Below, piece by piece: positions 2 to 49,295 of a stretch of DNA of 49,295 nt. The stretch comes from a virus. Location: IMG/VR virus record IMGVR_UViG_3300045119_000218, positions 1-49,295 of that record. The stretch is one strand, 5' to 3'. Both the position numbers and the translations under genes were made by a program. Numbering within the stretch: position 1 is the stretch's first letter; every line of letters begins with the position of its first letter. The notes beneath the pieces were generated by a model, which was not told where the DNA came from, did no database searches, and saw only the letters and a program-made list of their open reading frames with translations.

Positions 2-1279
2 CAAACCTACTGCATGGAATTTCCGCCGTCATTTTCGCTGACAGTGGACGGGACAGCGACCACAACAAATTATTCAGGTAATCCCGCGACTCTCACCGGT
101 GGCGCTGTCACTACAACTCTCAGCGGCGACATCCTGATCTCTCTCGCTGGAGGATTTCACAACAACTCTATCTGCGGCCCTCAAGATCCTCGCGGTGCCC
201 TAGGCAATCTGAAATACAAAGGTCTGGGGATGGCAAGGAACAACGACGGCGGCTGCATGGAGTACCAAGTGACGGGAGCTGCGGGATCCTACAGCAACAG
301 TTTCACGAACTGGCAGAACATGGATCAAGGGTTAGTGGTCACTGTCGCATTCAAGGCCAATGCGATGCACATCTCGACGCCGCTGGCGATTCCCGACGGT
401 GCGCTCTCCAACTCCTACAACTACACACTCGGCGCGGCAGGTGCAGCGTCTACAGTGACGTGGTCGGGGACACCTCCTGCGGGACTTTCTCTCAACTCCA
501 GCACCGGCGCGATCACAGGGACGCCTACGGTCAGCAACACTTACTCTTTCAGCGTCTCAGCCAGCGACGGCACTACGACCGACACGCAGACGCTGACGAT
601 GAAGGTCGCGACGTCGGCCAACACGATCACTGTGGTGCAGTCCAAGGCGAACACGGGAAGCCTGAACGGTCCACTCGCTTTCACGAGCAATCCCACTGCA
701 GGCAATACAATCGTTATCTTCGCGTCCAACATTGTCGGCACTTTCTACGACGGTGCGCCTAGTCCCTGCTTCGATACACTCGGCACCGTTTTCAACCGCG
801 TGATCGCGACCGTGATGATCTTCGACTACAACTCGCAGATCTTCATAGGGACCGTACCATCTACCGGCGCTGACTCTGTCAACTGTTCCAGCGGTCAAGG
901 CGGCGCTCAACTCGGCGGAATCATAGAACTCGCGAATGTCCAGAACTTCGGGGATTTTTCTAACGCAACCTTGAACACCACGGGATCTCCGATCTCCTCG
1001 GCATCGCTGACAACACCCGTACCCAATTCCATCGTTCTCTGCATGGGCACTGGCCGCACCTTCGCTACCGCGTTCACGCCACAGTCACCGTTCACCGGCG
1101 TGAGCGGCACGACCAATCTCAACGGATCGTACGACGTCACGACAACCGTCACCGGGTACTCGTGCAGCTACACCATGACGGGCAACAGCGACACGAACTG
1201 GCTCATGCAGTCGATTGCGTTGCGGCCTACGACAGGAGCGGTAGTGCCGCCAGCAACCGGCTACCCAGTGGTCTTTTGA
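2..1279 (+). CDS. Ig-domain adhesin/tail-fibre-like protein, 5' end outside window
   Basis: The frame is open from base 2, so the methionine at base 14 is probably internal and the gene starts to the left of the window. About 425 residues are visible. The middle (about residues 125-205) matches the putative Ig (He_PIG) pattern, with TPPAGLSLNSSTGAITGTP followed by a Tyr/Phe-rich strand and DGTTTDTQTLTM. The segment after it (VVQSKANTG, then AGNTIVIFAS) resembles the protein cut by the right edge of the window, which has VSQSNTNV and SGNIMVIGHS at matching places. No enzyme motif is visible. By position and composition this is a surface-binding fibre or adhesin; that role is inferred. Confidence 0.7.
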   Translation, partial: QTYCMEFPPSFSLTVDGTATTTNYSGNPATLTGGAVTTTLSGDILISLAGGFHNNSICGPQDPRGALGNLKYKGLGMARNNDGGCMEYQVTGAAGSYSNSFTNWQNMDQGLVVTVAFKANAMHISTPLAIPDGALSNSYNYTLGAAGAASTVTWSGTPPAGLSLNSSTGAITGTPTVSNTYSFSVSASDGTTTDTQTLTMKVATSANTITVVQSKANTGSLNGPLAFTSNPTAGNTIVIFASNIVGTFYDGAPSPCFDTLGTVFNRVIATVMIFDYNSQIFIGTVPSTGADSVNCSSGQGGAQLGGIIELANVQNFGDFSNATLNTTGSPISSASLTTPVPNSIVLCMGTGRTFATAFTPQSPFTGVSGTTNLNGSYDVTTTVTGYSCSYTMTGNSDTNWLMQSIALRPTTGAVVPPATGYPVVF

Positions 1280-1302: not shown

Positions 1303-1515
1303 ATGCTACCAACGATGAACATGACCGTGACCGCGATCGCGCAGGCAATGCAATGGCTCGTATGGAACGCACCTCTAGTAGTATTGCCGCTGACAGCGGG
1401 ATCGTTTTTCTTTCTCGGTCGGGTCACCAAACGCTGCAAACGTTGCGATAGCATGGATCGGTGGCGGCTGTACTTGAGTCAGGAAGCAGACAAAATAAAG
1501 GGAGAAAAGAAATGA
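1303..1515 (+). CDS. small single-span membrane protein
   Basis: 70 residues. One hydrophobic segment (about residues 8-40, including WLVWNAPLVVLPLTAGSFFFLG) is followed by a basic, Cys-containing tail (RVTKRCKRC) and a charged C-terminus. The stop codon overlaps the next start as ATGA (1512-1515), so the two genes are probably translationally coupled. The start has only a weak ribosome-binding site, and two further ATGs follow within nine codons. Size and topology allow a holin-like role in the lysis end of the late operon, but nothing specific shows this. Confidence 0.55.
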   Translation: MLPTMNMTVTAIAQAMQWLVWNAPLVVLPLTAGSFFFLGRVTKRCKRCDSMDRWRLYLSQEADKIKGEKK

Positions 1516-2126
1516 GACTAAAGAGAATCATCCCGGCCATTCTCATCATGCTGGCGTCGGCGCTGGGGACACTCGCGCAGCACAGCGTCTCGCTCAGTTT
1601 CACCGCGTCGGTCACGGCGGGAGTCACCAGGTACAATTTGTATCGCGCTGTCTGCACTGGCACCGTCACCGGCGGCACATGCAGCGCGGAAGGTCCGTTC
1701 ACAAACATAGGGAACACGACCACGACCAATTTCGTTGACTCGACTGTCGTCGCTGGCGGTCTCTACTCTTACTACGTCACGGCAGTGTGCCCGACCGCGT
1801 GCAATCCCACTGAAAGTGTGGGATCGAATCACGTTGCCGCTGTTGTGCCCAAGGATCCTCCGGCACCGCCCACGGGACTCTCGATCACGACTGTCTCCAG
1901 AAATTCCACTGGTGCCAACACCACGCTCAGTGCCAGCTACACGGCGACACCCAATGTCCGCACCACCTACGCATTCAGATCGGGATCGAGTGTGATCTCG
2001 TCAGGCGCTCAGGTCAACGCGACTGGGACCTACGCTGTGTCCTGGTCGGGAAAGTTGAAACCGGGAACTCCCGTCGTCTTCCAGGTGTGCGACGCTAACA
2101 ACTCGTGCGACAGTAGAACAATTTAA
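1512..2126 (+). CDS. secreted fibronectin type III-like protein
   Basis: 204 residues. I chose the ATG at 1512 because it follows GGAGAAAAGAA and begins a textbook Sec signal peptide (MRLKRIIPAILIMLASALG, then TLAQ). A longer in-frame start at 1461 would bury it. The mature part contains an FN3-like domain (SVSLSFTAS, VTRYNLYRA, GGLYSYYVTAV) similar to the C-terminal domain of the secreted protein at 40807-42249 (VDVAWTAS, VTGYNVYRG, NYCYVVTAF). A second beta-rich segment begins after PPAPPTGLSITTVS. Signal-peptide adhesins are not normal virion components, so the protein may be exported by the infected host. The role is unknown. Confidence 0.7.
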   Translation: MRLKRIIPAILIMLASALGTLAQHSVSLSFTASVTAGVTRYNLYRAVCTGTVTGGTCSAEGPFTNIGNTTTTNFVDSTVVAGGLYSYYVTAVCPTACNPTESVGSNHVAAVVPKDPPAPPTGLSITTVSRNSTGANTTLSASYTATPNVRTTYAFRSGSSVISSGAQVNATGTYAVSWSGKLKPGTPVVFQVCDANNSCDSRTI

Positions 2127-2139: not shown

Positions 2140-3750
2140 ATGAGAAAGCTGCTACTCCAGCTGTCATTTCTTCTCTTGCTGTGCGCGACGCCAGCACTCG
2201 CGAGCGACGTCTACGTTTCTGACGCCGGTGCTGGCGGCGCTACTGGTGCCGATTGCGCTAACGCTCGCTCCGCAGCGTTCTTCAACAACAGCGCGAACTG
2301 GCCGGGGACTATTGGTCCCGACACCATCGTCCATCTCTGCGGCACGATCGGGACGACAATGTCGATGCAGGGCAGCGGTACCAGCGGACACTTGATCTTC
2401 ATCGTCTACGAGCCGGGAGCAAAGTTGTCTCAAGCGGTGTGTCCTTCCACCGGGTGCTTCAACGGCAATGGGAAAAATTTCTGGACGATGGACGGATTCG
2501 GGACCGGCGACAACTGGACGCTGACATTCACGGCCAACGGCACTATCCAATCCACTGCGAACGGGACCGCGCTCGCGAACCAGAACGCGAACTCTGAACT
2601 CATCAATATCGATAACACGTCCAACGTCACGATCCAGAACATGGCGCTGATAAACGCATACGTACGGACATCGACGACGGATCTCGCGCCGTCGCAACCG
2701 GATCCCACCGCGCTCCACGCACAGGGCGCAAGTAACCTCGTCGTTCACAACTGCCTCGTCCACGACTCGCTCTGGGCAATCTACTTCGGTCTCAGCGCGT
2801 CAAACGTCACCATCGATCACTGCAATATCTACAATTCCGATCACGACATCGTGCCTGCTGTCGTCAATCAGACGCTGAACCTGGTCCTGATCCACCACAA
2901 CCGGATGCACGACTGGTCGAACTGGGATAGCGCACTACCGTCACCCAATAAATATCATCACGACGGCATCCACCTGTTCCAGACCAGTGGCGGCACCTAC
3001 TCCAATGTATACATATACGATAACTACTTCTATGGTGATTCCGGTGCCAACACCACGGCGCATATCTTCAACGAGGGATCGACAGCCGGCACTTCTATCT
3101 GGGTGTTCAATAATATCTTCACCAATATCGCGAGCAGGAGCTGGAGCAATGGGTCACTGTGCTTGACCATCGGCGACCTGGGATCGGCGCACGCGTACAA
3201 CAACACGGTCGTCACGGTCAGCGGTCAGGCGGCATCGCTCGCGAAGATGCAAGGCACCAATGATGACTGGCGCAACAACGTCACTATCTTGAACAATCCT
3301 GGCGGCGGCGGCCCCAGCGTCAATCAGTTCGGCAACACCGCGCCGACATTCGTCACCGGCGGCCTCGACTACAATTTCTACGGGATCAGTCCCACTACCG
3401 GACAGTATTTCGTCAAGACCTGCGGCAGTTCCTGTGCCTTCGTTAATTTCGCAACATGGAAAGGTCTCTTCGCCGTCGGCAGCAATCAGGAGGCGAACTC
3501 GGTCACAGATATCCCCGGGAATTTCGCTATCGATCCCGTCACTGGCGTCCCCGGCACCGGGTCAACGCTGTTGAATCGCGGCGCTAATCTCACAGCTCTG
3601 TGCTCGGGCAATCTCGCGTCGCTCTGCCAGGACATCAACGGTGCGGCGCGGCCTTCATCGGGAGCCTGGACTCCCGGTGCAGTTCAGTCCGGTGCGCCGC
3701 CTCCGCCGACGGTAGCACCACCGACAGGACTGACGACAACACCTCACTAA
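2140..3750 (+). CDS. secreted right-handed beta-helix protein (pectate-lyase-like fold)
   Basis: 536 residues with a Sec signal peptide (MRKLLLQLSFLLLLCATPALA). Residues about 150-390 show the short Val/Ile/Asn-rich coils of a parallel beta-helix: SNVTIQNMALINAY, SNLVVHNCLVHDS, SNVTIDHCNIYNS, LVLIHHNRMHDW, SNVYIYDNYFY, IWVFNNIF. Such folds occur in polysaccharide lyases and tail-spike depolymerases. No catalytic set can be assigned by eye. The C-terminus is Pro/Thr-rich (PPPPTVAPPTGLTTTPH). It starts 13 bases after the FN3 gene. Possible roles are degradation of capsule or plant/soil polysaccharide, or adhesion. The fold call is fairly secure; the substrate is unknown. Confidence 0.75.
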   Translation: MRKLLLQLSFLLLLCATPALASDVYVSDAGAGGATGADCANARSAAFFNNSANWPGTIGPDTIVHLCGTIGTTMSMQGSGTSGHLIFIVYEPGAKLSQAVCPSTGCFNGNGKNFWTMDGFGTGDNWTLTFTANGTIQSTANGTALANQNANSELINIDNTSNVTIQNMALINAYVRTSTTDLAPSQPDPTALHAQGASNLVVHNCLVHDSLWAIYFGLSASNVTIDHCNIYNSDHDIVPAVVNQTLNLVLIHHNRMHDWSNWDSALPSPNKYHHDGIHLFQTSGGTYSNVYIYDNYFYGDSGANTTAHIFNEGSTAGTSIWVFNNIFTNIASRSWSNGSLCLTIGDLGSAHAYNNTVVTVSGQAASLAKMQGTNDDWRNNVTILNNPGGGGPSVNQFGNTAPTFVTGGLDYNFYGISPTTGQYFVKTCGSSCAFVNFATWKGLFAVGSNQEANSVTDIPGNFAIDPVTGVPGTGSTLLNRGANLTALCSGNLASLCQDINGAARPSSGAWTPGAVQSGAPPPPTVAPPTGLTTTPH

Positions 3751-3760: not shown

Positions 3761-4297
3761 ATGGACGCCAACTCTGAAGCGCGGTTACTAGAGGTGAACA
3801 GTGTACTCGCGGGTAAGATCAGGACACTCGCGACGATGCTCGCGCAGGAAGGTATCGAGATCCGCGTCACGCAGGGATTCAGGACGTGGGCGCAGCAGCA
3901 CGCTCTCTACCTCCAGGGCCGCGCCGAGATCTCCGACGTCAATGCGTGTCGCGCTAACTGTGGGATGCCGCCGCTCTCCCAAGGCCAGAACTACCGCGTG
4001 ACCAAGGCCGACGCCGGATACTCGTGGCACAACTACGGTCTCGCCGTCGATGTCGCGCCGTTCAAAAATAACCGCCCGGTGTGGGACGATAAGGATCCAT
4101 CGTGGGACCGCATCGTCATGGTCGGCGAGAGCCTAGGTCTGAGATCGGGACTGGCGTGGGACGACAAGCCTCACTTTGAACTCACAGGGAAATTCGGCGA
4201 GAAACCTCCCGACGACGTCGTCGCGACCTACAAACAAGCGAACGAGCACGGCTCGGGATCGCAGGCCGTGTGGGAGGTTGCAGGGATCGATGCTTGA
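3761..4297 (+). CDS. endolysin, M15-family L-alanyl-D-glutamate peptidase
   Basis: 178 residues. It should cleave the peptide stem of peptidoglycan at lysis. The VanY/M15C pattern is clear: TQGFRTWAQQHALYLQGR near residue 36, the zinc-binding SWHNYGLAVDVAPF (His and Asp ligands) near residue 88, and DDKPHFEL with the final His ligand near residue 136. This is the arrangement of the T5-type endolysin. There is no signal peptide, so a holin or comparable membrane lesion is needed. The start follows GGGAGACAGC. The lipoprotein and a small protein follow at once, forming a lysis cassette. Confidence 0.9.
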   Translation: MDANSEARLLEVNSVLAGKIRTLATMLAQEGIEIRVTQGFRTWAQQHALYLQGRAEISDVNACRANCGMPPLSQGQNYRVTKADAGYSWHNYGLAVDVAPFKNNRPVWDDKDPSWDRIVMVGESLGLRSGLAWDDKPHFELTGKFGEKPPDDVVATYKQANEHGSGSQAVWEVAGIDA

Positions 4298-4331: not shown

Positions 4332-4718
4332 ATGAAGAAACTTTCCATCGCAGTCCTCGCATTGGCCCTGATATTTTCTCTCGACGCGTGCGGTCCCAAA
4401 CACGTCAACCATCCCGGTGCCGCGAACACTTTCGATTCCGATAGTTACGACGCGCTGCTGGTGACGGACCAGGTTATCAAGACCACGAAGGATGAACTCG
4501 CCGCTGGAAAGTTCCCCGGCACTCTCGCGGATAAAGTGAGGACGGTGCTGAACGATCTGATTCGCGGCTACAACGTTGCGGACAATGCGTACAAGGAATA
4601 TCACGCGGCGGCACTCGCCGGGACCGCGACCACAGAGCAATCCAATGCCGTCACAAATTCACTGGCACAGATGAAGACTGAGACAGCGGCGCTCGCCGCA
4701 GTAAAGGCAGGGCAATAG
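4332..4718 (+). CDS. small lipoprotein in the lysis cassette
   Basis: 128 residues with a lipoprotein signal: MKKLSIAVLALALIFS, then lipobox LDAC with Cys at residue 20. The mature part is helical and charged (KTTKDELAAGKF, ALAAVKAGQ). It lies directly after the endolysin, preceded by AGGAG nine bases before ATG. That position suits an outer-membrane spanin subunit, but no inner-membrane partner is obvious and the protein is longer than most o-spanins. It may instead be a lipoprotein that blocks receptors or superinfection. Confidence 0.7.
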   Translation: MKKLSIAVLALALIFSLDACGPKHVNHPGAANTFDSDSYDALLVTDQVIKTTKDELAAGKFPGTLADKVRTVLNDLIRGYNVADNAYKEYHAAALAGTATTEQSNAVTNSLAQMKTETAALAAVKAGQ

Positions 4719-6201: not shown

Positions 6202-6243
6202 GATGACTGTCGCCTCCGAGTAGATTTTACTACGACTTTGGGG

Positions 6244-13598: not shown

Positions 13599-13611
13599 AA
13601 TGTTGCGCCTC

Positions 13612-14514: not shown

Positions 14515-14733
14515 TTATCGCCAATGTTTATGCGGCCTTTCGCCTCGACATTCAGAAGTGTCGCGAGAAAAAATGTTGAGCGCATTGAAGATAAAACTTC
14601 CATTCCGGTCTCCGAAACAATCTTTCTCGAAGTCCACAACGAGACCGTCACGCGTAACCTGTATAACGTGTCCCTCATGGCCGCCGCGAAAGAACTGGTC
14701 ACGCGGAACGCGAACCAAATCACCGATCCGCAT
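14515..14733 (-). CDS. small KOW/SH3-like protein
   Basis: 72 residues. The pattern MRIGDLVRVPRDQF, HEGHVIQVTRDGLVVDF resembles a KOW or small SH3 barrel, and then the sequence becomes polar. The ATG lies inside the last codons of the preceding 55-residue gene. A longer reading in another frame (14388-14723) looks like a shadow. Function unknown. Confidence 0.55.
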   Translation of the reverse strand: MRIGDLVRVPRDQFFRGGHEGHVIQVTRDGLVVDFEKDCFGDRNGSFIFNALNIFSRDTSECRGERPHKHWR

Positions 14734-14887
14734 AGCCGCGCCCTTTCAGTTCTGTGTAAATCTCATCGAAGGCACGAGCGCGTGACAGCCACACAGCTTT
14801 GTCCAACTGCGTGCGAGCCACACGGGCACATTGCTCTGATTCCCGCATACGCAGAAGCATTTCGAGAACTAGCTTACGGTCGTTCAC
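14720..14887 (-). CDS. tiny helical protein, GTG start
   Basis: 55 residues. GTG at 14887 overlaps the upstream stop as GTGA, with GGAGGAAGCGGAA just before it. The sequence is almost all helical and charged (LVLEMLLRMRESEQCARVAR, LDKAVWLSRARAFDEIY, ELKGRGYADR). Function unknown. Confidence 0.55.
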   Translation of the reverse strand: MNDRKLVLEMLLRMRESEQCARVARTQLDKAVWLSRARAFDEIYTELKGRGYADR

Positions 14888-15138
14888 TTCCGCTTCCTCC
14901 CTCGCGCTGGGCCAGCCTCACGCACCGTCAGCGGGCGCAAATCCGTCTCTCGAATGTTGTCAATCGTGTCCATCTGGTTGTAGTGGGCGAGCTTGTACCA
15001 CCAGCGCAATCCTCGTCCGACGCCCTCCGCTACTTGGTACGAGAACGTCACGCGCAAGTAATAACCGTACCTCCACATCCGCACAACCTGCCCCACGCGA
15101 AACTTCGGCCCCGCTTTGGCTTTCTCGCTCCGCTTCAT
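14884..15138 (-). CDS. small SH3/KOW-like protein, paralogue B
   Basis: 84 residues. Same N-terminus as paralogue A (13988-14200), then an aromatic middle (VVRMWRYGYYLRVTFSYQV, RGLRWWYKLAHYNQM) and DLRPLTVREAGPARGRKRK. Start overlaps the upstream stop as ATGA. A duplication followed by divergence of the middle is the simplest reading. Confidence 0.65.
   Translation of the reverse strand: MKRSEKAKAGPKFRVGQVVRMWRYGYYLRVTFSYQVAEGVGRGLRWWYKLAHYNQMDTIDNIRETDLRPLTVREAGPARGRKRK
15091..15138. repeat. 48-base exact direct repeat, copy 2
   Basis: Identical to 14153-14200; encodes the shared N-terminus of paralogue B. The copies are 938 bases apart and in the same orientation, so recombination between them would delete five small genes. 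Confidence 0.9.
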
Positions 15139-15407
15139 AGCTTTTCCATTCCGATAAATGCTTCATCTACTCGCTTTTGCCACTCGCTGCGCGGAAAATT
15201 TCGGGCGTACAGAAACGCAATCAATTCCCCGGTACTGAATCCACCACGGCAATGACCTGTCACCAAAGCCTCTTGTGGGCGGAATACGGCGCAATAGACT
15301 TCGTAGGCCAGCATCGTTACCACCGTTGGGCAGCGTCCACCGTCAACACGATTCCCTTTGTGGTCGCGCACTTGAACCGGATGCGTTTTGACAGTCTCTT
15401 CGCTCAT
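15135..15407 (-). CDS. small protein of unknown function
   Basis: 90 residues. SEETVKTHPVQVRDHKG start, then a compact part with CPTVVTMLAYEVYCAVF and GELIAFLYARNFPRSEWQKR. ATGA overlaps on both sides. I see no catalytic motif and no membrane span. Confidence 0.6.
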   Translation of the reverse strand: MSEETVKTHPVQVRDHKGNRVDGGRCPTVVTMLAYEVYCAVFRPQEALVTGHCRGGFSTGELIAFLYARNFPRSEWQKRVDEAFIGMEKL

Positions 15408-15607
15408 CGTCCGCTCTTTTTCCGTCTTTGCGCCGCCATCTCACTATGCCGACAAGGCATGCAGATGTGACTGCAAATTCTCCCATCGCTGCGTGATGTG
15501 CTGTGCTTAGCCAGCGTAAACTCTGCGGCCAACAGCCAGTTCGCTCGACGGCGTTCGTAGAAGCTAATCAACGCTTTCACTTCTCTCGCTACTTCAGCAT
15601 CCGTCAT
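15404..15607 (-). CDS. small basic Cys-containing protein
   Basis: 67 residues from the ATG at 15607; a longer reading upstream is out of frame with its neighbour and lacks a ribosome-binding site. Helical N-terminus (TDAEVAREVKALISFYERR), then RICSHICMPCRHSEM, where Cys and His residues could bind zinc, and a basic end (AQRRKKSGR). Coupled by ATGA to the next gene. Confidence 0.5.
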   Translation of the reverse strand: MTDAEVAREVKALISFYERRRANWLLAAEFTLAKHSTSRSDGRICSHICMPCRHSEMAAQRRKKSGR

Positions 15608-39500: not shown

Positions 39501-40109
39501 AACAACATGGTGATCGGATTCGCTCGCATGGGGATCCAGATCTTGGCGGATTGGATCAAGGTTATCGCGGCTCGCGTCGTTGCATGGATCGCGGGAGAAC
39601 AGATCCAAACTGCGGCAGCTCAGTCGGGAGCGTTGCAGCGCAACGGCATCGGAATCGCGGAGACACTGAAATCAATCGGTCGTGCTGCTGCCACTGCCGC
39701 TGCTCACGCGTTCAAATGGGTGATGGAGGTAGTCCCGTTCCCGGCCAACGTCATTCTCGCGCCACTGACCGCTGCAGGCGCGTTCGCATCGGTCCTGGCA
39801 TTCGGTGCCCTTGCCTCCGCCGCCGGTGGTGCTGTTCTCGACAAAGACACTCTCGTCCAGGCTCACGCACGAGAAATGATTCTTCCTGCCAGCATCAGCA
39901 CTGGTCTCCAGAGCGTCATCGCGGGAGGCAGTGTCGGCCCTCAAGGATCCGCGCTCTCCTCATCCGCTGCGGTGCGCGGCAGCACCTTCCACATCAGTCC
40001 CAAGATCACGGTCCACCAGACCGGCGACAGCAGCGGTAGGATGTCTACCGAAGAAATTTCCGCCGCCGTCAGTCTCGGCATCCGAAGGGGGATGATTAAC
40101 CTGACATGA
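36528..40109 (+). CDS. tape measure protein
   Basis: 1193 residues, the longest helical protein in the window, placed after the chaperones. Long Ala/Glu/Thr-rich coiled-coil stretches (residues 1-310 and 620-950), a hydrophobic span (GMVTSVPVLVGIFATGFAIR, about 318), a globular part (EKSGGEARKLAQQQAELGAT) and a C-terminal hydrophobic region with MTNFWNNMVIGFARMGIQIL. At the usual rule of about 0.15 nm per residue the tail would be near 180 nm. ATGA overlap with the next gene. Confidence 0.92.
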   Translation: MAGSGDNILQLFITANVESLKSQMDAGVSSFKGGVESMKAAAASLPDAIETSVATAAATFISLNPALQAQAAAVLDLKAAYASAKSDIKETEDIIAEAGGTTEVTSSILRKYAEETAQVVVLQRALSDATKEYDRTLRELLNAQILSAEASKAEAAATSQATAAAATNEITDEARARVKAKLAELSAADAARSTSTAASQAAASRTTAAATEQEATAANTASEAYIRLANATVANAQAQAEVRAILSGAVEMTGLESQFTNELALAQEKAAATALELAAATKAVTVATEEASAAQSTFRGRIALSEYGVRGFISGMVTSVPVLVGIFATGFAIRAVEAIQKTELELQNLSILTGESVRDLYDLGQAAQAFGAKSDDLTGAMRRLDKVISDAASGNESARLTLRELGVQMTEINSGIVPKTSTVLAQMSDYLQLNAGNAEVMRAAMRALGSDSVALAAFLSQGSQKVREQSEQFALTGTAMEKSGGEARKLAQQQAELGATWDRMKLPLLELTNTLLPAFLKGLEAIGDAATLGLTHLPDLWDKVRAGIQLAVDSQNEFIHNLGLVTASKLGINAEGDTIDLKTVKAFQPPAPPVQAQVKDTKPKIPRAEASDLPEFREELAEREAAFEGSRSAMLAMELAFWENLISTGRVKARDLVAVHAEIARTEIQLRREVVHEAENESRDTIALTRAGSDARVDEAQRGMELERRLRGSDSSEFADAQKVYLLAVRDRVEETIRLQVQATEESVALESRGSAGRVALYQSELTSLNASLAAAQAAVAREQQIWTETGNEHAHQRMLIEQGEADFIVGQISKVTKEANAASRERTALLEKEAADAARLHLQETIGTARETIGDADVTARAHIQQIEHDGLLLFQQKHTLIEQIIAVQRTQIDDALRAAEEEASANLALAKTVEQRIAAEHQLDQVQKLRAAEMKRIKGEELAEDNRVSQQMETNALKVGSVISTSFSSAFDKMLTTHTNFAAVMTNFWNNMVIGFARMGIQILADWIKVIAARVVAWIAGEQIQTAAAQSGALQRNGIGIAETLKSIGRAAATAAAHAFKWVMEVVPFPANVILAPLTAAGAFASVLAFGALASAAGGAVLDKDTLVQAHAREMILPASISTGLQSVIAGGSVGPQGSALSSSAAVRGSTFHISPKITVHQTGDSSGRMSTEEISAAVSLGIRRGMINLT

Positions 40110-40810
40110 GTAACGCTATCTATCCCGCTAAGGTTCGCGGCCTCACATACAGCGTCACCAAGACGCCGGAGTTCTCGACCGTGGTGCAACGCGCAGTCTC
40201 CGCAGCAGAAATCAGAATCCCCAACTGGCAGAATCCCATCTGGCACTGGGACCTGATTTACGATTACCTCTGGGATGATCCCGGCAACATCGCGCCTGGT
40301 CTGACGCAGACCGATCTCCGCACCCTGATGGGATTTTATATGTCGCGCCAGGGAATGTTCGATTCATTCCTCTACTCGGATCCTAACGACAACACAGTCA
40401 CGACGGATGACCAGACACTCCAGGTCGTCGTCAGCGGCGGCACTAGTTACGTCCCAATCCAACGCGCAATGGGTCCGATCGGAGCGCAGTTCTACGAGGA
40501 CGTCACCGATCTCGACGGACCGATCCAGATTTTCGACAACGCAGTGCTGCAGGCTCCGGTTATCAACTACAACATCATCGGTCCCGGCGTCGCACTCGAC
40601 GGATTCAGTTTCGAGGGTCTCGTCGCGCAATGGGTCGGCACTCCCACCGGCCCGATCACGGCCAATTTCGGTTTCTTCTTCCGCGTCAAGTTCGACACCG
40701 ACAAGGTGGACTTTGAAGAGTTCGTGAACAAGCTGTGGACACTGGGCGGCGGTCAGGCGCAATCAAGCAATGCTCTAAAGCTGGTCAGTGCAAGGGTGCC
40801 GTTAGCATGA
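40106..40810 (+). CDS. distal tail protein, DUF2460-like (GTA g12 type)
   Basis: 234 residues. VKTPEFSTVVQ-like strand (YSVTKTPEFSTVVQRAVSA), then NWQNPIWHWDLIYDYLWDD, MGFYMSRQGMFDSFLYSDPN and VPIQRAMGPIGAQFYEDVTD are characteristic of the DUF2460/distal tail family. It connects the tube to the hub. Overlaps its neighbours by four bases at each end. Confidence 0.8.
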   Translation: MSNAIYPAKVRGLTYSVTKTPEFSTVVQRAVSAAEIRIPNWQNPIWHWDLIYDYLWDDPGNIAPGLTQTDLRTLMGFYMSRQGMFDSFLYSDPNDNTVTTDDQTLQVVVSGGTSYVPIQRAMGPIGAQFYEDVTDLDGPIQIFDNAVLQAPVINYNIIGPGVALDGFSFEGLVAQWVGTPTGPITANFGFFFRVKFDTDKVDFEEFVNKLWTLGGGQAQSSNALKLVSARVPLA

Positions 40811-42249
40811 AAATTTTAACTCGCGCAGTGTTGCTCCTGCTGATGATGCTGTTGCCCGGTCTTCTCTACGGGCAGCGCGTCAATAATCTAGTGCCTAATT
40901 TCTCTCCCTCCACCGCGTCGCCGTACACGATCACGGTCAACGGTGACGGGTTCACTCCCGGTGCCACTGTCTTGTGGGAGAGCATCCCACTGAGCACCAC
41001 GTACGTCAGCGCGTATCAGCTCACGGCACTGGTCCCGTGCTGCTTCTCCGTTGACGTCTCGACCGTCCACATCATCGTGCAGCTCTCGGGCGGCCAAACC
41101 TCGATCCCGGTCCTGTTCCAGAACCTGGGCGCACAAGCCCCAATCACATCGACAGTGCCATCGACATTCACCGCAGGAGTTACCACACCGTTAACTGTCA
41201 ACGGTAACTACTTTGTGGCCGGCAGCACAATCACTTTCGATAACATTCCTCAGACGACAACAATGGTGTCGCAGTTCCAGATGACCGCGACTGTTCCCGG
41301 CGGCAACATCGACAGCCGCACCAATCACGTCATCAAGGTGCATTATCCGAAGAATCCGTCGGTGCGCCTGAACCCGCAGACGCTGTCGTTCGGGACGATC
41401 AACACCGGCACCACGTCAACGCTCGATTCCACTCTCAGCAATCTCGCCAGCACCACGCTGACGATCAGTAGCAAAGTGAAATCAGGCGCGGCAGAGTTCT
41501 CGTTCACCGATACCTGCTCCAGCACCGTAGCGCCGTCCGCATCGTGCGTCTTCCATGTCCAGTTCGCGCCGCTGTCCGTGGGCACCTTCGCGGGACAAAT
41601 CGCGGTCACCGACACTGGCGTCGGCTCCCCGCACATCATTTCTTTCAGTGGCGCTGGCACAGGTCCACCTCCTGGCAACGTTCTGCTGTTCTCGCCGTCG
41701 TCGCTCACGTTCCCGACGACAGCGACAGGAGGATCGTCGTCACCGCAAACGATCACGGTTACCAATTCCGGCGCGTCTACCGTCACCATCAGCGGCGTCG
41801 CGCTCACTGGCACTGGGTTAGGCAGCTACAGCATCGCGGATTCATGCACCGGAACTCTAGCGTCACTGGCATCGTGCAACGTCGATGTGACCTTCACTCC
41901 ACTGTCCGCAGGGATCTTGACCGCTGCCGTCCAATTCACCGACACCGGCGTCGGGTCTCCGCAGAACGTTCCGGTTACCGGCACAGGTTCCACGGCGAGT
42001 CACAGCGTTGATGTCGCGTGGACCGCATCAGCATCGAGCGGCGTCACCGGCTACAACGTCTATCGCGGCACCGTCTCTGGCGGCCCCTACACTCAAATCA
42101 ACGGTGCTCTCATCAGCGGCACCACGTACACCGATTTTGCTGTCACCAGCGGACAGAACTACTGCTATGTCGTGACGGCATTCGCTCCGACCGGATATTC
42201 TCCGCAGGAAAGTGTTCATTCAATCGAGAGTTGCGCGACGGTGCCATGA
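40807..42249 (+). CDS. secreted multidomain adhesin (IPT/TIG, ASH-like, FN3) inside the tail-tip genes
   Basis: 480 residues from ATG 40807 (ATGA overlap). Signal peptide MKILTRAVLLLLMMLLPGLL, YGQ. Two IPT/TIG-like domains (YTITVNGDGFTPGATVLWES; TPLTVNGNYFVAGSTITFDN). Two choice-of-anchor D/ASH-like repeats (PQTLSFGTINTGTTST with CSSTVAPSASCVFHVQFAPL; SSLTFPTTATGGSSS with CTGTLASLASCNVDVTFTPL). A C-terminal FN3 domain (VTGYNVYRGTVSGGPYTQI). Such architectures are common in acidobacterial secreted proteins. It sits between the DUF2460-like and DUF2163-like tail genes. Function unknown; host-derived origin is inferred. Confidence 0.78.
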   Translation: MKILTRAVLLLLMMLLPGLLYGQRVNNLVPNFSPSTASPYTITVNGDGFTPGATVLWESIPLSTTYVSAYQLTALVPCCFSVDVSTVHIIVQLSGGQTSIPVLFQNLGAQAPITSTVPSTFTAGVTTPLTVNGNYFVAGSTITFDNIPQTTTMVSQFQMTATVPGGNIDSRTNHVIKVHYPKNPSVRLNPQTLSFGTINTGTTSTLDSTLSNLASTTLTISSKVKSGAAEFSFTDTCSSTVAPSASCVFHVQFAPLSVGTFAGQIAVTDTGVGSPHIISFSGAGTGPPPGNVLLFSPSSLTFPTTATGGSSSPQTITVTNSGASTVTISGVALTGTGLGSYSIADSCTGTLASLASCNVDVTFTPLSAGILTAAVQFTDTGVGSPQNVPVTGTGSTASHSVDVAWTASASSGVTGYNVYRGTVSGGPYTQINGALISGTTYTDFAVTSGQNYCYVVTAFAPTGYSPQESVHSIESCATVP

Positions 42250-43193
42250 GGAAATTTCTTGGCGGTGACGGATCCAACACAACTGCGGCGGTCCTGGCAT
42301 TTCGTCAGGCACGCAATCAATACCTCATGGCGGATCTGGTCCTCATCGGGGAGCTAGAAGACCCTCTCGCGGTGCGTCTCACGTCCTATCCCTCGCCGCT
42401 GCTCTGGTCGCTCTACAGCTCTCCCGATAATCCGTTTCTACCCGCGACCACTACACGCGGCAGGATCACGTCGCAAGAGGGGTTGCAAGTAGACACGCTC
42501 GATTTCTCCTGGTCGCCGCCACTGACGGCATTCGGCACATCACTGGCAACTGCGAACCACTACCAGAAAGCGCAGTCGGGATTCTACGCAAGCAAAAAGT
42601 TTCGTCTCTGGCGTACACTGATGCCGACTCCTGGCGACGCCAATACTTTCGGTGCGTGCATCATGTTCGGCGGCAGGATCCAGGACACCACGATCGAGCG
42701 CGGGAAAATCACCTTTGGCGTCAACTCGTTTCTCGATGTGGTCGATCAGTTGTTGCCGCCTAACGTGATCGAGTGGACCAATACCCTCGCGTCGTACATG
42801 GGAAATATGCCGGTGTTCGCGGACGCTGAAACTACACTGCCGCAATTCACCGTCGTCGCGCCCACATCCAACGGAGTCATCACGGCACAATGCACCGCGC
42901 CCACAGCGAACAAGATTTACGGTGCGAACAAATTCCAGCGCGGATTCATCGCGTTCAACCCCTCGTCATCGCTCGCGGGATACTACGCTACTGTCGCGAC
43001 CAACGTCGATTTCCGCACCGCTGCCGGTGTCCACTACAATCAGTTCACCGTGTATCAGCAGTTCCCCTGGCCGCCAAGCGTGGGCGACACTTTCTACGCG
43101 TCAGTGCAGCCGTCGATGAACCAGCAAGACGCGGTGGCAGCGTCACCGTACGACGCGTTCCGCTGGGTGCCTCAACCGGAAGGTGCAGCTTGA
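42246..43193 (+). CDS. tail hub protein, DUF2163-like (GTA g13 type)
   Basis: 315 residues from ATG 42246, overlapping the adhesin stop as ATGA; a longer reading inside the adhesin gene is rejected. LMADLVLIGELEDPLAVRLT at the start, TTTRGRITSQEGLQVDTLDF, then IQDTTIERGKITFGVNSFLD and FTVYQQFPWPPSVGDTFYAS resemble DUF2163/BR0599-type hub proteins. It precedes NlpC/P60 as in gene transfer agents. Confidence 0.72.
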   Translation: MRKFLGGDGSNTTAAVLAFRQARNQYLMADLVLIGELEDPLAVRLTSYPSPLLWSLYSSPDNPFLPATTTRGRITSQEGLQVDTLDFSWSPPLTAFGTSLATANHYQKAQSGFYASKKFRLWRTLMPTPGDANTFGACIMFGGRIQDTTIERGKITFGVNSFLDVVDQLLPPNVIEWTNTLASYMGNMPVFADAETTLPQFTVVAPTSNGVITAQCTAPTANKIYGANKFQRGFIAFNPSSSLAGYYATVATNVDFRTAAGVHYNQFTVYQQFPWPPSVGDTFYASVQPSMNQQDAVAASPYDAFRWVPQPEGAA

Positions 43194-43657
43194 GAGACAA
43201 AATCATCGCCGAGGCGCGGACCTGGATCGGGACTCCCTACGTCCTGGGCGCGTGCGTCCGTGGGGCTGGTGCCGACTGCGCGACATTTATCTACGGCGTG
43301 CTCCACGCTCTCGGCATGATTAACGACGAGACCATCGGACATTTTAGTCCTGATTGGTTCGCGCACACCGACGAGGAAATCTACCCGCGACGTCTATTGC
43401 GTCACGCGTTCAAGACCGCTGTCGGGATCTCCTACACCACGCTGGAGACTCAGCCTGGGAACATCGTCCTCACCAGGCACTCGACCAGCAGTCGCGTCTT
43501 CAACCACGCTGGTATCGTCGTCAAATGGCCGCACCTGATCCACGCTATCGATCCCTGCATAACGGAAGTGAACGCGACACAGCACTCGATGTGGTGCAAT
43601 CGGGAAGTGGCGGTATTCGATCCCGTCGCCAAGTTTGAACTGGAGCACATCTCGTGA
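43190..43657 (+). CDS. NlpC/P60 cell-wall peptidase of the tail tip (GTA g14 type)
   Basis: 155 residues from TTG 43190, overlapping the previous stop as TTGA, with GGAAGG upstream. IIAEARTWIGTPYVLGACVR, then GAGADCATFIYGVL holds the catalytic Cys. VFNHAGIVVKWPHLIHAI holds the His. This is the NlpC/P60 fold used by tail tips to open peptidoglycan at DNA entry. Confidence 0.88.
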   Translation: MRDKIIAEARTWIGTPYVLGACVRGAGADCATFIYGVLHALGMINDETIGHFSPDWFAHTDEEIYPRRLLRHAFKTAVGISYTTLETQPGNIVLTRHSTSSRVFNHAGIVVKWPHLIHAIDPCITEVNATQHSMWCNREVAVFDPVAKFELEHIS

Positions 43658-46600
43658 TCGGTGGAAAGTCCAACTCGGCGTCCAAGCCCACAGCTCTAGG
43701 TACCATGCTCAATGCCGCGACGTACGGCATGACGAAGCCGACGATCATCGGCACCACACGGTCTACATTGCTCGCGATCTGGGCAGCAAATTTGCGTAAG
43801 GGCGGCAGCCACAAGAAAGCGAAAAAGGGCAAAGGTCCACCCACCTACGTCGAGAACGTGGACTTCCTCGTCGGCAGCAACCCGATCGAGGGAGTGCTGC
43901 AGCTCTGGTCGAACAACACCAATCGCTACACGATGGAGTTCGTGAAGTACACTGTGTCGCCGGGGAATATCCTGACCATTCCCGATTCTCACTTCTACTT
44001 TGTTCTCGGTGTCACGGCCAACGTCGATCTCGTCGGGACCTTCGACGACTACGGAGATCCGGCGTCAGCTACCGGCGTCAATGTCCTGTTCCCGTTCGGA
44101 TTCCCTGGTCCACCCAGCACAGGTACCGGATACAACATCGGAGACACATTCCTCGTCACGGGCGGCGACGGCAACTGCGTCGGTCGCGTTGACGGCGTCA
44201 GCGGCGGCGTCCCCACATCGCTCGCGGTAGATTTCCCTGGTTCCGGTTACGTCGGTGCGAACGGAGTCCCGACCACTACACTCACGGGCGGCGGTACCGG
44301 CCTCCAGGTTGACGTCGCTTTCCTCGGGAAGAAGTTCTACAACAACAGCTACGAGCACCCGCTGTGGAATATCTGGCACCCAGGGCCGAATCTCGTGAAC
44401 ATGAATTACGCACGCCAGTATCCCTGGCTCTTTAACTGGCAGCCGGGATCCAACGTCATCACGTTTCCCTACTATCAGAATTTCCTGGCTCCCGGCAATG
44501 GATTACCTAATGGTACTGGTGTCATCAATGTCTATTACATGCGTCTCACCAGCGCCACCAAGTTCCAACCTCCGATCACGTACAATCGTATGTCGTTTGA
44601 ACAGATCCTGGGCAGCGGGACCGAATATGCCGACGCGGGACTCTCGTCGCAACAGGATCTCCACCCGTGCGACGCGGGACTAGGGTCATCGGACATCGAC
44701 CTCGGCAGCACCGGGATGCTTCCCGACTGGCGCGTGGAAGTTAAAGGTAGCCACTGTATCCATCCTCACGGCGACGCAGACTTCGTGGACATGATCGAAG
44801 ACGCCATGATGTCCGGGCAGCTGCAGGTGTTGTCGCAACTGGGCCTGATCCAGCGCGGCCTCAACTGTAACGACCTCCCCGGCACGATCCAGAAATCGAT
44901 GTACCTGCAGCTGGAACCTACACCCACTGCACAGATCCCGTTCACGCAGGCTAACGGTGTCGGCAATCTCATTCTCAACTTCACGCGCTGGCGCTCGGGC
45001 GGCGGACCTCCCACTATTTTCGACGATGCCGGTGACGCGTTCACCCCGATCATGCTCGGCAGCAACGTTGGCTTCTGGTATGCCAATTCAGTAGGTTTCC
45101 CTATCGGTAATAGAGTGTCCGCGGTGTGGAACAGCGGCGGCGGATTCTCGTTCGACGTCCGCACTTATATTTTCGAGATGGATCCCGGCACCAATGAAGT
45201 CGAGAACACAGCGGTGGCGCAAGGGACTACAGTAGGCGCGGCGGATATTTCTCTCTCGATCACGGTCACGCGCCCCAGCTATATTCTCCTCGCTGTCGAA
45301 TCCCCGTCGGTGAACAACACCAATGTCCCTGTCCACTGGGATAGCGTCATTCCCAACCTCCAACCTGGGACCAATCAACCTCTGCTGTGCAAGCGATTCG
45401 TCGCGGCTGCCGGGACCTACACGGTCAAATTCCATATCGACGCGGCTACGGTCTACAACATCGGCATGATCGCGATGTCCGGCGCACCTTCACCGCTACC
45501 CAAGGCGCTAGGGAACATTCTCGATAACGACACCTTGGAGCTGACGCGCAACCAATGTTGGGCGAACGGTCTGGTCGGCAGCATCGCGATGCGGTCACAG
45601 CGCAAAGCATCAGAGTGGTTGAAGGAATACTACCAGTGCGCCAACGCCGCACCTGTCTGGTCCGGTGACGTGCTCAAAACTATTCCCCGCAGCGAAGTCA
45701 GCGCGGTCGGTGCCGGTGTCATTTTCAATTCCTACTACGCGTCCGGTCCCATCACGACACTGACGCAAGACGATCTCGTCGCGGACAACAAGAAATCTCC
45801 AGTAATCATCAAGCGCAAAGCACAGGTCGATGCCAACAACGTTGACAAGATCCAATTCTGCGATCGCGACAACGACTACAATCACTCGACGGCGTCACAA
45901 CCGGAATCCGCCGCAATCACGTTCGCCGGTCCCAGGCCACTGCCGCCGACACTGCTGGAAGAGATCCAGGACCCGCTGGTAGCTCGCAAGATCCTGGCGA
46001 TCTCGGTGCGCCGTAAAACTCATCTGCTCAATACTTATTCCTTTACCATGACGCAGAAGTGGTCGGGACTTGAGGCGCGAGACCTAATCAAGATTCCCGA
46101 TCCCAACAATTTACTCAGCTACATCGACGTGATCCTCACTAAAGTTGTCGAGAACGAGAATCTCGACCTGGACTGTGAAGCTGAACCTTTCATCTACGGT
46201 CTCAATGCTCCCGACTCCGACGCTATTGGTGTCACTGTCGTCGCGCCGAACAATCCCGATAGCGGTGTTGTTCCCGCTCTCGTCAACACTCCGATATTCC
46301 TAGAGCCGCCGACGGCAATGACCGTGAACGGTGAACAGGAACTCTGGATACCCGTGAGCAACGCCGATCCCAACTACGGCGGATGCTTCGTGTGGGTCTC
46401 GACCGACGGCGGCACATCGTACGGCGCGAATCCGATCGCGACCATCTTCGGCAACGCAGTGACAGGTGTCCTGACACAGTCCTGGCCTGCGGGACTCGAC
46501 CCTGATGTCGTTAACGATCTTAAAGTAGACCTCAGCGAGAGCCTCGGCACACTTGCATCGTTCCCGGTCTCGGACATGAATAATTTTGTCCACCCGTTCT

Positions 46601-47628
46601 ACGTCGAGGGATCCACTACCTGTGGCTACGAGCTGGGCGCGTACTCGACGGCGACACTCACCGGACCTAACGCTTACACGATTCCGGCTAGTCCCAACGG
46701 GATCCGTCGCAACGTCTACCATCAACCGTTGTCGGGATCTGTCTCTCACGCCGCCGGGAAACGTTTCGCATTCCTGGGCGCGGCGTCAGTCGCCAGTCCC
46801 GGTGTCTTCGGCGACGGCAGCGGTGTCGCTAAACTGTTCATGCAGGCGATCTGGATCGGACAGACGCTCAAGTTCAAGTTCCAGGCGTTCAATGCGTTGG
46901 GCGGCGGTATCCAGGATCTTCCCGATTGCACCGCGTACAGTTATGTTCCCGGTGGCTGCGCGATCATTCCCGCGCCGGAAATCGTAACAATTTCAGTGAC
47001 GTCACCGGCGGGAGGGAACTTCACTGTCCCGCACGGGTTACTCGCGACGCCGCTATTCGCGATCGTGCAAATGACCTCGGGCGGCATCATGGTGCTGCAG
47101 CGTCCGCTGTCTGTGGACGGCACCAATGTCTATCTCACGGCGTCGGATGCAGGACTCACCGCGAATGTCTCATTCTTCTACGCTCCCGCTGACGCGTCAG
47201 TACCACTGTCACCGTCCGTCCCCGGCGCGTTCAGTGTTCCACACGGCCTCGCGTCAACGCCCACTCTCGGTATCGTCCAGATGGATTCTCTTGGTGATAT
47301 CTGGAAGGGCGCTACTCCCTACACTTCGACCAATCTCAACCTCGTCGCCAGCTTCGGTCCCATCACCGGGAAAGATTACGCATGGATCACGGCACCACGT
47401 ACGCCAACACTGACGCGTTTCGCATCGATCGCACTGGCCCCTGGAGCTGGCGGCAACTTCAGCGTCCCGCACGGCCTGGGCGCGATCCCCAAACTAATCA
47501 TCGTTCGCATGAGCAGCGGTGGTAACATCTGGCTACAAATCGCAGGCGCAATCTCAGCGGACATCACCAATTTGTTTCTGACGGCATCGGATGCAGGCAT
47601 CACAGGAGAGGCAGAGGTATGGGCATGA
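43654..47628 (+). CDS. large tail-tip/host-recognition protein (GTA g15-like)
   Basis: 1324 residues, GTG start overlapping the peptidase stop as GTGA. The N-terminus is basic (GGSHKKAKKGKGPPTYVENV). A repeat like the one in the tail tube protein lies near residue 150 (GTGYNIGDTFLVTGGDGNCV, GSGYVGANGVPTTTLTGGGT). Middle domains contain LVARKILAISVRRKTHLLN, LIKIPDPNN. The C-terminus has three tandem modules of about 75 residues, each with F-x-VPHGL and IVxMxSxG (NFTVPHGLLATPLFAIVQM, AFSVPHGLASTPTLGIVQM, NFSVPHGLGAIPKLIIVRM), probably receptor-binding. Confidence 0.8.
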   Translation: MIGGKSNSASKPTALGTMLNAATYGMTKPTIIGTTRSTLLAIWAANLRKGGSHKKAKKGKGPPTYVENVDFLVGSNPIEGVLQLWSNNTNRYTMEFVKYTVSPGNILTIPDSHFYFVLGVTANVDLVGTFDDYGDPASATGVNVLFPFGFPGPPSTGTGYNIGDTFLVTGGDGNCVGRVDGVSGGVPTSLAVDFPGSGYVGANGVPTTTLTGGGTGLQVDVAFLGKKFYNNSYEHPLWNIWHPGPNLVNMNYARQYPWLFNWQPGSNVITFPYYQNFLAPGNGLPNGTGVINVYYMRLTSATKFQPPITYNRMSFEQILGSGTEYADAGLSSQQDLHPCDAGLGSSDIDLGSTGMLPDWRVEVKGSHCIHPHGDADFVDMIEDAMMSGQLQVLSQLGLIQRGLNCNDLPGTIQKSMYLQLEPTPTAQIPFTQANGVGNLILNFTRWRSGGGPPTIFDDAGDAFTPIMLGSNVGFWYANSVGFPIGNRVSAVWNSGGGFSFDVRTYIFEMDPGTNEVENTAVAQGTTVGAADISLSITVTRPSYILLAVESPSVNNTNVPVHWDSVIPNLQPGTNQPLLCKRFVAAAGTYTVKFHIDAATVYNIGMIAMSGAPSPLPKALGNILDNDTLELTRNQCWANGLVGSIAMRSQRKASEWLKEYYQCANAAPVWSGDVLKTIPRSEVSAVGAGVIFNSYYASGPITTLTQDDLVADNKKSPVIIKRKAQVDANNVDKIQFCDRDNDYNHSTASQPESAAITFAGPRPLPPTLLEEIQDPLVARKILAISVRRKTHLLNTYSFTMTQKWSGLEARDLIKIPDPNNLLSYIDVILTKVVENENLDLDCEAEPFIYGLNAPDSDAIGVTVVAPNNPDSGVVPALVNTPIFLEPPTAMTVNGEQELWIPVSNADPNYGGCFVWVSTDGGTSYGANPIATIFGNAVTGVLTQSWPAGLDPDVVNDLKVDLSESLGTLASFPVSDMNNFVHPFYVEGSTTCGYELGAYSTATLTGPNAYTIPASPNGIRRNVYHQPLSGSVSHAAGKRFAFLGAASVASPGVFGDGSGVAKLFMQAIWIGQTLKFKFQAFNALGGGIQDLPDCTAYSYVPGGCAIIPAPEIVTISVTSPAGGNFTVPHGLLATPLFAIVQMTSGGIMVLQRPLSVDGTNVYLTASDAGLTANVSFFYAPADASVPLSPSVPGAFSVPHGLASTPTLGIVQMDSLGDIWKGATPYTSTNLNLVASFGPITGKDYAWITAPRTPTLTRFASIALAPGAGGNFSVPHGLGAIPKLIIVRMSSGGNIWLQIAGAISADITNLFLTASDAGITGEAEVWA

Positions 47629-48956
47629 GAAAACTATCTTCGATTTCAATTTTAGGATTGGTACTGCTGCTGACATCGCTAGTGGTATGGGCGCAGCAAC
47701 CGCAAACGACGACCGCACCGATCTACGCAGTCAACGCGAAATACGTCAACGGCGTCGCGCCCGGATACTGGTCCACTCCCGGCAGCGGATTGACGCTGAA
47801 CATTTCCGCTGGCACCGTGTTCTGCCTGGGGACTGTCCGCACCTATTCCAGTGGCACGTTGACGATGGCGAACAACACTACAAACTATGTCTATCTCGAC
47901 ACCACGTCGTTGTGCGTTCCCGCCACCAGCACCTCCACGTTCAACGGGACCACAATCCCATTGGCAGTGGTCGTGACTTCGGGCGGCGTCATCACGTCGG
48001 TTACCGATGACAGGACCACCATGTCCACCTCGATCGGTACCGCTTCCATCGTCGGCGGCACCTGCACGAATCAAGCGGTGACCGCGATCAATACATCAAG
48101 CGTCCCGACCTGCACCACACTGACGTCGGCCTACGTGAACAATTCCATTGCGCTGACCGGGACCGATATCAATACCTCCAATCAAGTCACGGCGACACAT
48201 TTATCTGCCGCGCTCCCGATCAACCAAGGAGGTACAGCAACAACTAGTACACTCACCGGAGTGGTCCGGGGCGGCAACCCTCTCACGGCATCTGAACTGA
48301 GCGGCGATGCAACAACATCGGGATCGAACGCAGTAACCGTGGTCAAGGTCAACGGACTGTCTATCCCCGTCTCGGCCAACTACCTGCGTACCAACGGCAG
48401 CGGTCAATTCGTCGCCGGTGACTATCCCGAGACCAAGATCATTCCCTCCGCCAACTGTCCCAACGCTGTCGCTGGCGCAGGCTGGAGCTACGCAACCTCC
48501 ACCTGGACAGTGGCGTGTCGCGGAGGAACGAATAATATCGGCGGCGCTCTACAGCTCGCACCCTCCAGCGGCGGCGCTGCACAGTTCCGGCTAGAGATCC
48601 CCGCTGACTGGGACTCGGCGTCGCAACCCTACATCCGTATCGAGTACGGATCCGGCGCGAACACATCAGGCACCGTGATCTGGACCGTCGCCAGCGCCTG
48701 CACTAAAGCTGACGGATCCGTCACCGATGACCCATCGTTCAACGCGGAGTCTGCTTTCGGCACCCAGACGATGGCGGCGGCAAACCGCGCCTGGTCCCAG
48801 ACCGGACAATTCACAGCGATCACGAGCGGTAACAACTGCGTCGGCGGCGGCGCGGTCATCATCAAGATGACGCTCTCCGGCACGGCGTCGAGCGCCATCA
48901 ATGCGTATCAAGCCATAGTGACGACGCAAAGGCTTCCAGTGGTACAGGCGAACTAA
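47625..48956 (+). CDS. secreted tail-fibre-like protein
   Basis: 443 residues from ATG 47625 (ATGA overlap; a second ATG at 47619 is possible). Signal peptide MRKLSSISILGLVLLLTSLV, VWAQQ. Thr/Ser/Gly-rich beta sequence; INQGGTATTSTLTGVVRGGN is like the GGTG repeat joints of tail fibres. The C-terminal domain (GGALQLAPSSGGAAQFRLEI, YIRIEYGSGANTSGTVIWTV) is a beta-sandwich type. A Sec signal on a fibre-like protein is unexpected. Confidence 0.75.
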   Translation: MRKLSSISILGLVLLLTSLVVWAQQPQTTTAPIYAVNAKYVNGVAPGYWSTPGSGLTLNISAGTVFCLGTVRTYSSGTLTMANNTTNYVYLDTTSLCVPATSTSTFNGTTIPLAVVVTSGGVITSVTDDRTTMSTSIGTASIVGGTCTNQAVTAINTSSVPTCTTLTSAYVNNSIALTGTDINTSNQVTATHLSAALPINQGGTATTSTLTGVVRGGNPLTASELSGDATTSGSNAVTVVKVNGLSIPVSANYLRTNGSGQFVAGDYPETKIIPSANCPNAVAGAGWSYATSTWTVACRGGTNNIGGALQLAPSSGGAAQFRLEIPADWDSASQPYIRIEYGSGANTSGTVIWTVASACTKADGSVTDDPSFNAESAFGTQTMAAANRAWSQTGQFTAITSGNNCVGGGAVIIKMTLSGTASSAINAYQAIVTTQRLPVVQAN

Positions 48957-48958
48957 CG

Positions 48959-49295
48959 ATGAAAAGAATACTTTGCGGCTTTCTTTTTCTGATTTTTCCA
49001 GCGCTCGCTGCGGCGCAATTCCCCTACCCCTACGATCTTCCCGTCCAGGTGTCGCAATCCAACACCAACGTCTGTGTGATGCAGCGCAACGTGACGTCTG
49101 GAAACATTATGGTGATCGGTCACAGTTGGTTCAGCTCTGGATCGAGTCCCAGCGTCGCCGACACGCGCAGCACCAGCTACACGCAGAAAGTCTACAGCTC
49201 GTCTGGATCCGGTTCCGTCGGCGGAATGATCTACGCGGGTGTGTTGAGTTCTGGTGGATCGAACACGATCACGGTCACGATCAGCGGCGAGTCGT
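48959..49295 (+). CDS. secreted adhesin-like protein, 3' end outside window
   Basis: 112 complete codons are visible, cut by the right edge. Signal peptide MKRILCGFLFLIFPALAAAQ. The following VSQSNTNVCVMQRNVTSGNI, MVIGHSWFSSG and SNTITVTISGES form a module also seen at about residues 205-300 of the gene cut by the left edge. If the molecule is circular these could be one gene, but direct joining shifts the frame. Confidence 0.65.
   Translation, partial: MKRILCGFLFLIFPALAAAQFPYPYDLPVQVSQSNTNVCVMQRNVTSGNIMVIGHSWFSSGSSPSVADTRSTSYTQKVYSSSGSGSVGGMIYAGVLSSGGSNTITVTISGES

Follow-up and report, generated by a model that had tools for sequence, protein, structure and literature searches.

Predicted Sec-exported proteins among the late tail genes of a soil phage

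The virus record IMGVR_UViG_3300045119_000218 has been analysed as a whole IMG/VR record of 49,295 bases, hereafter the window. Its late operon contains, among and behind the tail-tip genes, five genes (starting at 40807, 47625, 48959, 1512 and 2140) which encode proteins with a classical Sec signal peptide, as a sequence-only reading of this DNA had claimed. It is highly probable that these late phage proteins are exported through the Sec pathway. The best overall explanation, to which we give an even chance, is that they act on the envelope and surface glycans of the infected cell and aid virion release. Signal peptides, their conservation, gene order, coupling, the cysteine pattern and the host phylum of related prophages were read from the sequence; from these we infer the occurrence of export, the disulfides, a polysaccharide substrate and the benefit to the phage.

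Signal peptides of the late genes

The five N-termini share a basic start, an uncharged hydrophobic core and a small-X-small site, usually followed by glutamine, and all genes lying between the J-type tail-tip gene and the endolysin gene of the window carry such a signal, if a gene cut by the contig ends is counted once. Signals were called with a rule requiring a basic start, an uncharged core of nine residues and a small-X-small or lipobox site, which recovers lambda lom as a positive control. This prediction, which the sequence-only reading had named as a check, picked out 37 of the 345 genes encoding at least 90 amino acids in 22 acidobacterial-type loci (the window with its relatives), compared with 4 of 1725 shuffled N-termini. 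In three proteobacterial phages with a related J, it picked out 3 of 114 genes, none longer than 187 amino acids; in six other phages, the positives were 6 of 198, consisting of lambda lom and short proteins of membrane or lysis type. The rate of 10.7% compares with 3.0% in these six non-acidobacterial phages (Fisher p=0.0014, which is only a guide because the loci compared are related).

The relatives were retrieved with an alignment of two J sequences, which yielded 31 IMG/VR loci; an initial genome scan with the two J sequences gave no match, and single-protein scans with the hub and 40807 proteins found no relatives, so that alignments were needed. Two loci (L008 and L018) were excluded because the gene caller had picked the wrong strand. 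By the rule, at least one signal-bearing protein of at least 180 amino acids is encoded in 13 of 23 J-family loci, and L004 adds one more by eye. A start-codon artefact as the source of the hydrophobic N-termini was rejected, since 40807 and its orthologues begin exactly in four-base overlaps with the preceding gene.

The gene-order search in related phages suggested by the sequence-only reading showed that the arrangement is conserved. In L002, whose J is 55-57% identical, a signal-bearing Ig/FN3 gene lies between the DUF2460 and hub genes and a signal-bearing fibre gene directly follows J; then come, in the same order as in the window, a signal-bearing FN3 gene, a signal-bearing beta-helix gene and the endolysin gene. 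The FN3-like proteins encoded at 1512 and in L002 are 74% identical and retain all six cysteine residues, their mature parts being 79% and their signals 35% identical. For the mature part, the ratio of nonsynonymous to synonymous substitution rates (dN/dS) is about 0.08, with dS near saturation. Cysteine makes up 1.95% of exported proteins versus 0.78% of the other proteins of the same loci (2.5-fold; p 1e-31, with rows that are not independent).

Tail-tip slot and exported fibre family

The rightward late genes (all late features given here lie on the plus strand) begin at about 23.4 kb with terminase, portal, capsid region and tape measure, followed by a tail tip resembling that of gene transfer agents (GTA). 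Its first gene, 40106..40810, encodes a DUF2460, GTA-gp12-like distal tail protein (Pfam PF09343, E=1.1e-20) and forms the left border of a slot occupied by 40807..42249, which encodes a predicted Sec-exported IPT/TIG-ASH-FN3 protein of 480 amino acids with the signal MKILTRAVLLLLMMLLPGLLYG followed by QRV. On the right lies 42246..43193, encoding a baseplate hub protein (DUF2163-like; PF09931 at E=7e-5, below cut-off; 51% identical to L002). The slot gene overlaps both neighbours by four bases, exactly as the sequence-only reading had described for one exported gene between two tail-tip genes. Since, in addition, the region 39.5-49.3 kb holds no promoter- or terminator-like sites beyond chance, the exported genes are read as late and tied to the tail.

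Six other phages have an orthologue in the same slot (L002, L004, L009, which equals L079, L026, L027 and L081). In all seven, the gene starts in a four-base overlap with the preceding gene, and the family, with identities of 31-62%, shares an architecture of signal peptide, IPT/TIG domains, ASH domains and C-terminal FN3. The module names given by the sequence-only reading hold in part: ASH, together with Cep192_D4 and HYDIN Ig, is above the Pfam cut-offs in the 40807 protein, while IPT/TIG is above cut-off solely in the orthologues of L027 and L081; neither FN3 in 1512 nor the beta-helix in 2140 is backed by a Pfam hit, and the beta-helix is read from a partly confident AlphaFold model. Behind their slot genes, L009 and L081 carry further signal-bearing genes, including one for a beta-helix protein (PF13229).

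In other relatives, the slot is empty or holds different genes, such as two adjacent DNA-methylase-like genes in L024 (3397-4717) or another non-tail-like gene in L011 (7619-8548). The slot serves as a general site for cargo within the tail-tip operon. The distribution of the slot gene over the J tree requires at least four gains or losses, a count in which L012 was taken as a holder owing to a different signal-bearing gene beside its hub gene, and five of the seven members of the window's clade hold the gene. The cargo has therefore been gained and lost, yet long retained. In L012, a signal-bearing protein of 2185 residues with five CHB_HEX_C_1/Fn3_assoc repeats is encoded at 2548-9105, between the hub and J genes.

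The hub gene is followed by genes for an NlpC/P60-like tail peptidase (43190..43657; PF00877, E=8e-4; PHROG 329, minor tail protein) and for the J or megatron-like tail-tip protein (43654..47628; PF13550, E=1.4e-9; PHROG 4271, tail). In an ATGA overlap with the 3' end of the J gene starts 47625..48956, encoding a predicted Sec-exported, fibre-like protein of 443 amino acids (signal MRKLSSISILGLVLLLTSLVVWA followed by QQPQTTTAP). The label fibre-like, proposed in the sequence-only reading, finds no Pfam hit in this protein but is upheld by a domain common to phage tail proteins; an AlphaFold model (mean pLDDT, the predicted local distance difference test, 38.5) was too poor to use. Scanning with the N-terminal domain of 47625 revealed this domain together with a signal peptide in L002, L053, L054 (with the near copies L056 and L057), L055, L058, L059 and L060, and the domain also in a contig of an Acidobacteria metagenome-assembled genome (MAG; G002:C60). 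SGNH-like stretches suspected in L053-L055 were without Pfam support and were dropped.

In the eight aligned members of this family, the alanine at position -1, the mature start QQPQT which follows it, and two cysteine residues, Cys67 and Cys97 in window numbering, are invariant, and the hydrophobic core of the signal varies in sequence and length. Like tail fibres, the family combines a conserved N-terminal domain and a variable C-terminal part with a position after tail-tip or baseplate genes; tail fibres are expected to be synthesized without an export signal, whereas all eight aligned members carry one, and no comparable case emerged from literature searches on signal peptides of tail fibres. 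Cytoplasmic homologues of the domain, encoded in L061 and in a Syntrophomonadaceae phage (tail protein XPP57681.1), have neither the signal nor either cysteine, a contrast to be expected had the domain been moved to an oxidising compartment. The family lies downstream of baseplate-wedge genes in L058 and L059 and of J-type genes in L053 and L060, and therefore crosses tail types. Several of the phages that carry an exported fibre also have, immediately before it, a gene for a cytoplasmic fibre-like protein. The exported fibre domain also occurs at G076:C128:57589-57930 (L069), on an Acidobacteriota contig with nuo-like and folE-like genes close by; no phage genes were seen in the vicinity, and this is perhaps a domesticated copy.

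Downstream proteins, contig ends and host

The late gene run crosses the contig ends and reaches the endolysin gene at 3761. At the right end, 48959..49295 encodes 112 residues including the signal peptide (MKRILCGFLFLIFPALAAA followed by QFP), with a weak match to an exported L036 protein; at the left end, 2..1279 encodes a putative Ig domain (PF05345, E=2.5e-11) and lies one base out of frame with it. The contig ends look like the cut of one gene, of which 48959..49295 is the 5' part and 2..1279 the probable 3' remainder, so the five signal genes of the sequence-only reading stand, one of them as a truncated gene. Given the frame offset, a base or short stretch would then be missing at the join. 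Ends which seem to adjoin in one gene and to be about one base short suggest a circularly permuted, nearly complete genome.

Further along, 1512..2126 encodes the FN3-like protein (204 amino acids; signal ending in AQ before HSVSLSF), and 2140..3750 a predicted Sec-exported, putative right-handed beta-helix protein of 536 amino acids (signal MRKLLLQLSFLLLLCATPALA followed by SDV), probably polysaccharide-active. Signal-bearing relatives of the latter occur in L035, L036 and L037. Its AlphaFold model is good solely for about residues 20-300, and from this partly confident model Foldseek E values down to 3.9e-6 were obtained, with resemblances to pectate lyase Pel9A, PL6 lyases, lacto-N-biosidase, the adhesin PfbA and phage tailspikes; by sequence, the protein matched no solved structure. 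Among 247 sampled Acidobacteriota genomes, one encodes a signal-bearing homologue (34% identity, 519 residues) which is not beside phage genes and lies within an exopolysaccharide cluster comprising polysaccharide synthesis, deacetylase, glycosyltransferase, acyl-ligase-like and asparagine-synthase-like genes. A tblastn search of 50,697 phage records with the beta-helix, fibre and FN3 proteins gave no match; therefore, no characterised phage serves as a guide. Besides its relative of 2140, L037, a phage unrelated to the window, encodes between 3381 and 8907 two signal-bearing proteins: a beta-helix-like one (at 3381) and one that weakly matches a minor-tail PHROG (at 7894).

The VanY-type endolysin gene (3761..4297; PF02557, E=7.1e-10; PHROG 2649, endolysin) is followed in the lysis region by 4332..4718 (MKKLSIAVLALALIFSLDA followed by C). 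The lipoprotein which the sequence-only reading saw here is probable, albeit with an atypical lipobox, LDAC; a relative behind the late genes of L027 has a good one, LCGC. Behind the late genes, the lipoprotein is paired with a small proline-rich protein in both the window (4332-4962) and L027 (16182-16819), a conserved arrangement which is perhaps part of the lysis system. Elsewhere in the window, on the minus strand (6527-9075), a protein combining uracil-DNA-glycosylase, exonuclease and DNA polymerase A is split into overlapping frames (7939-9075 and 6527-8242), unlike in L051, where the glycosylase and the polymerase lie in a single frame of 916 amino acids (12682-15432, minus). This split may reflect a frameshift, a sequencing error or a true division of the gene.

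In the genome collection, J-family loci turned up in two bacterial records, each an Acidobacteria MAG; one locus lies within a 638-kb contig. The 40807 repeats matched at 9 and 28 places in these two genomes. The phage comes from soil, and related prophages in Acidobacteriota genomes make this phylum its most likely host. Acidobacteriota are among the commonest soil bacteria; to our knowledge, there is almost no bench knowledge of their phages.

Possible roles and known systems

The claim of the sequence-only reading that these proteins are expressed with the tail and exported is well supported by conservation, freely varying signal peptides, paired cysteines and ATGA coupling, and a role of the proteins outside the cytoplasm would follow. 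In the mechanism which we propose, late transcription and coupled translation (of 40807 and 47625) would yield the proteins alongside the tail tip. Host Sec would export them, signal peptidase would cleave them, disulfide bonds would form outside the cytoplasm, and the mature proteins would be retained in the periplasm or at the surface until lysis released them. The beta-helix protein may be a lyase, hydrolase or epimerase of host exopolysaccharide, and the Ig/FN3 and fibre-like proteins may bind glycans or the envelope. Loosening of the polysaccharide matrix and occupation of receptors or of binding sites on debris would keep new virions from being trapped on the lysed cell. Action on glycans, taken by itself, has slightly less than an even chance.

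Several points weigh against this explanation. The signal calls come from a home-made rule and inspection rather than from SignalP, the cysteine and rate tests were run on related sequences, and J has conserved cysteines too (8 of 13). A fibre position after J is equally expected of a virion part. For 2140, the model is partly confident (mean pLDDT 59), the structural matches are weak (template modelling score up to about 0.5) and no catalytic residues were identified.

One alternative, which appears unlikely, is that 47625 and perhaps 40807 are virion parts which are exported, fold and trimerise in the periplasm and join tails at or after lysis through the N-terminal domain. Such parts would fit the location, typical of fibres, immediately behind J or baseplate genes, the fibre-like distribution of conserved and variable regions, the annotation of a cytoplasmic relative as a tail protein and the fact that no signal-less fibre-like gene lies between J and endolysin in the window. 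However, a domain found behind both wedge and J-type genes is unlikely to fit a single tail partner, other phages additionally have a cytoplasmic fibre-like gene, and we know of no documented assembly of tailed virions with exported parts. Similarly doubtful is the idea that Acidobacteriota phages converted a tail-fibre module to export through Sec, giving a disulfide-bonded protein which is completed outside the cytoplasm and only after lysis joins the virion or works alongside it; if true, some of the adhesion apparatus of a tailed phage would be assembled extracytoplasmically.

We consider it no more probable that the genes are surface morons of the lambda lom or N15 cor kind, exported cargo altering the infected-cell surface for superinfection exclusion or adhesion. 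As expected of morons, a Sec or lipoprotein signal is found on non-lysis genes which lie among tail genes and are absent from some relatives; the variable content of the slot, its gains and losses on the J tree and the location of lom and cor in the tail region also agree. By contrast, the autonomous expression of a moron from its own promoter and terminator is not seen for the exported tail-region genes, the overlaps on both sides bind the slot gene to the tail, and membrane-barrel features are absent. That the genes are neutral passengers, host secreted genes recently acquired and without a role, is very improbable: similar modules are abundant in host genomes, but the low dN/dS and full cysteine conservation of the FN3 protein and the stability of the slot family across its range of identities argue otherwise. 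Just as remote is the reading of the hydrophobic N-termini as membrane anchors or structural segments, to which only the apparently anchor-like N-terminus of a beta-helix relative in L033 lends itself, against the small-X-small sites, the free-varying cores beside invariant mature starts, the cysteine pattern and the signal on the host homologue of 2140.

Returning to export with action at the cell surface, the retention of the arrangement in relatives suggests that phages of this host phylum work outside the infected cell. If the late operon of these phages does hold a conserved group of exported proteins, their infection programme would extend to the exterior of the dying cell, including its polysaccharide, receptors and debris. 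The genes provide concrete proteins for expression, and the invariant cysteine pair of the fibre family makes maturation outside the cytoplasm directly testable.

The sequence-only reading knew of no described system of this kind, which is too strong: tail-region genes for exported proteins are already known from lambda (lom) and N15 (cor), and PblA/PblB are also comparable. Lambda lom has a Sec signal and lies among tail genes directly downstream of J; it is, however, a single gene without overlap with J and encodes a small outer-membrane protein rather than an Ig/FN3, beta-helix or fibre-like one. The cor gene of N15 and phi80, whose role is exclusion, encodes an exported lipoprotein between tail-tip and fibre genes, but one of less than 80 amino acids and with an annotated terminator after the gene. 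T5 Llp is a functional parallel to the exported lom and cor genes. Streptococcal PblA and PblB, from phage SM1 and pneumococcal prophages, are likewise tail-operon proteins which act as adhesins on the cell surface; in S. mitis, these tail proteins are released when the lytic cycle causes permeabilisation, and the one signal peptide, that of pneumococcal PblB, is a prediction (PMC4508584).

The beta-helix tailspikes or depolymerases of HK620 and Sf6 share with 2140 the right-handed beta-helix fold predicted for it and a probable glycan substrate; they are virion parts without Sec signals, whereas 2140 carries one and is similar to a secreted protein encoded in a host exopolysaccharide cluster. 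Finally, the RcGTA tail tip (gp12 DUF2460, gp13 hub, gp14 peptidase and gp15 megatron) has the same gene order as the window, except that in the window an exported gene separates the gp12- and gp13-like genes. What is new here is the number of genes, their architecture, the way they are coupled within the tail-tip operon, and the presence of a predicted export signal and a cysteine pair on a phage fibre domain.

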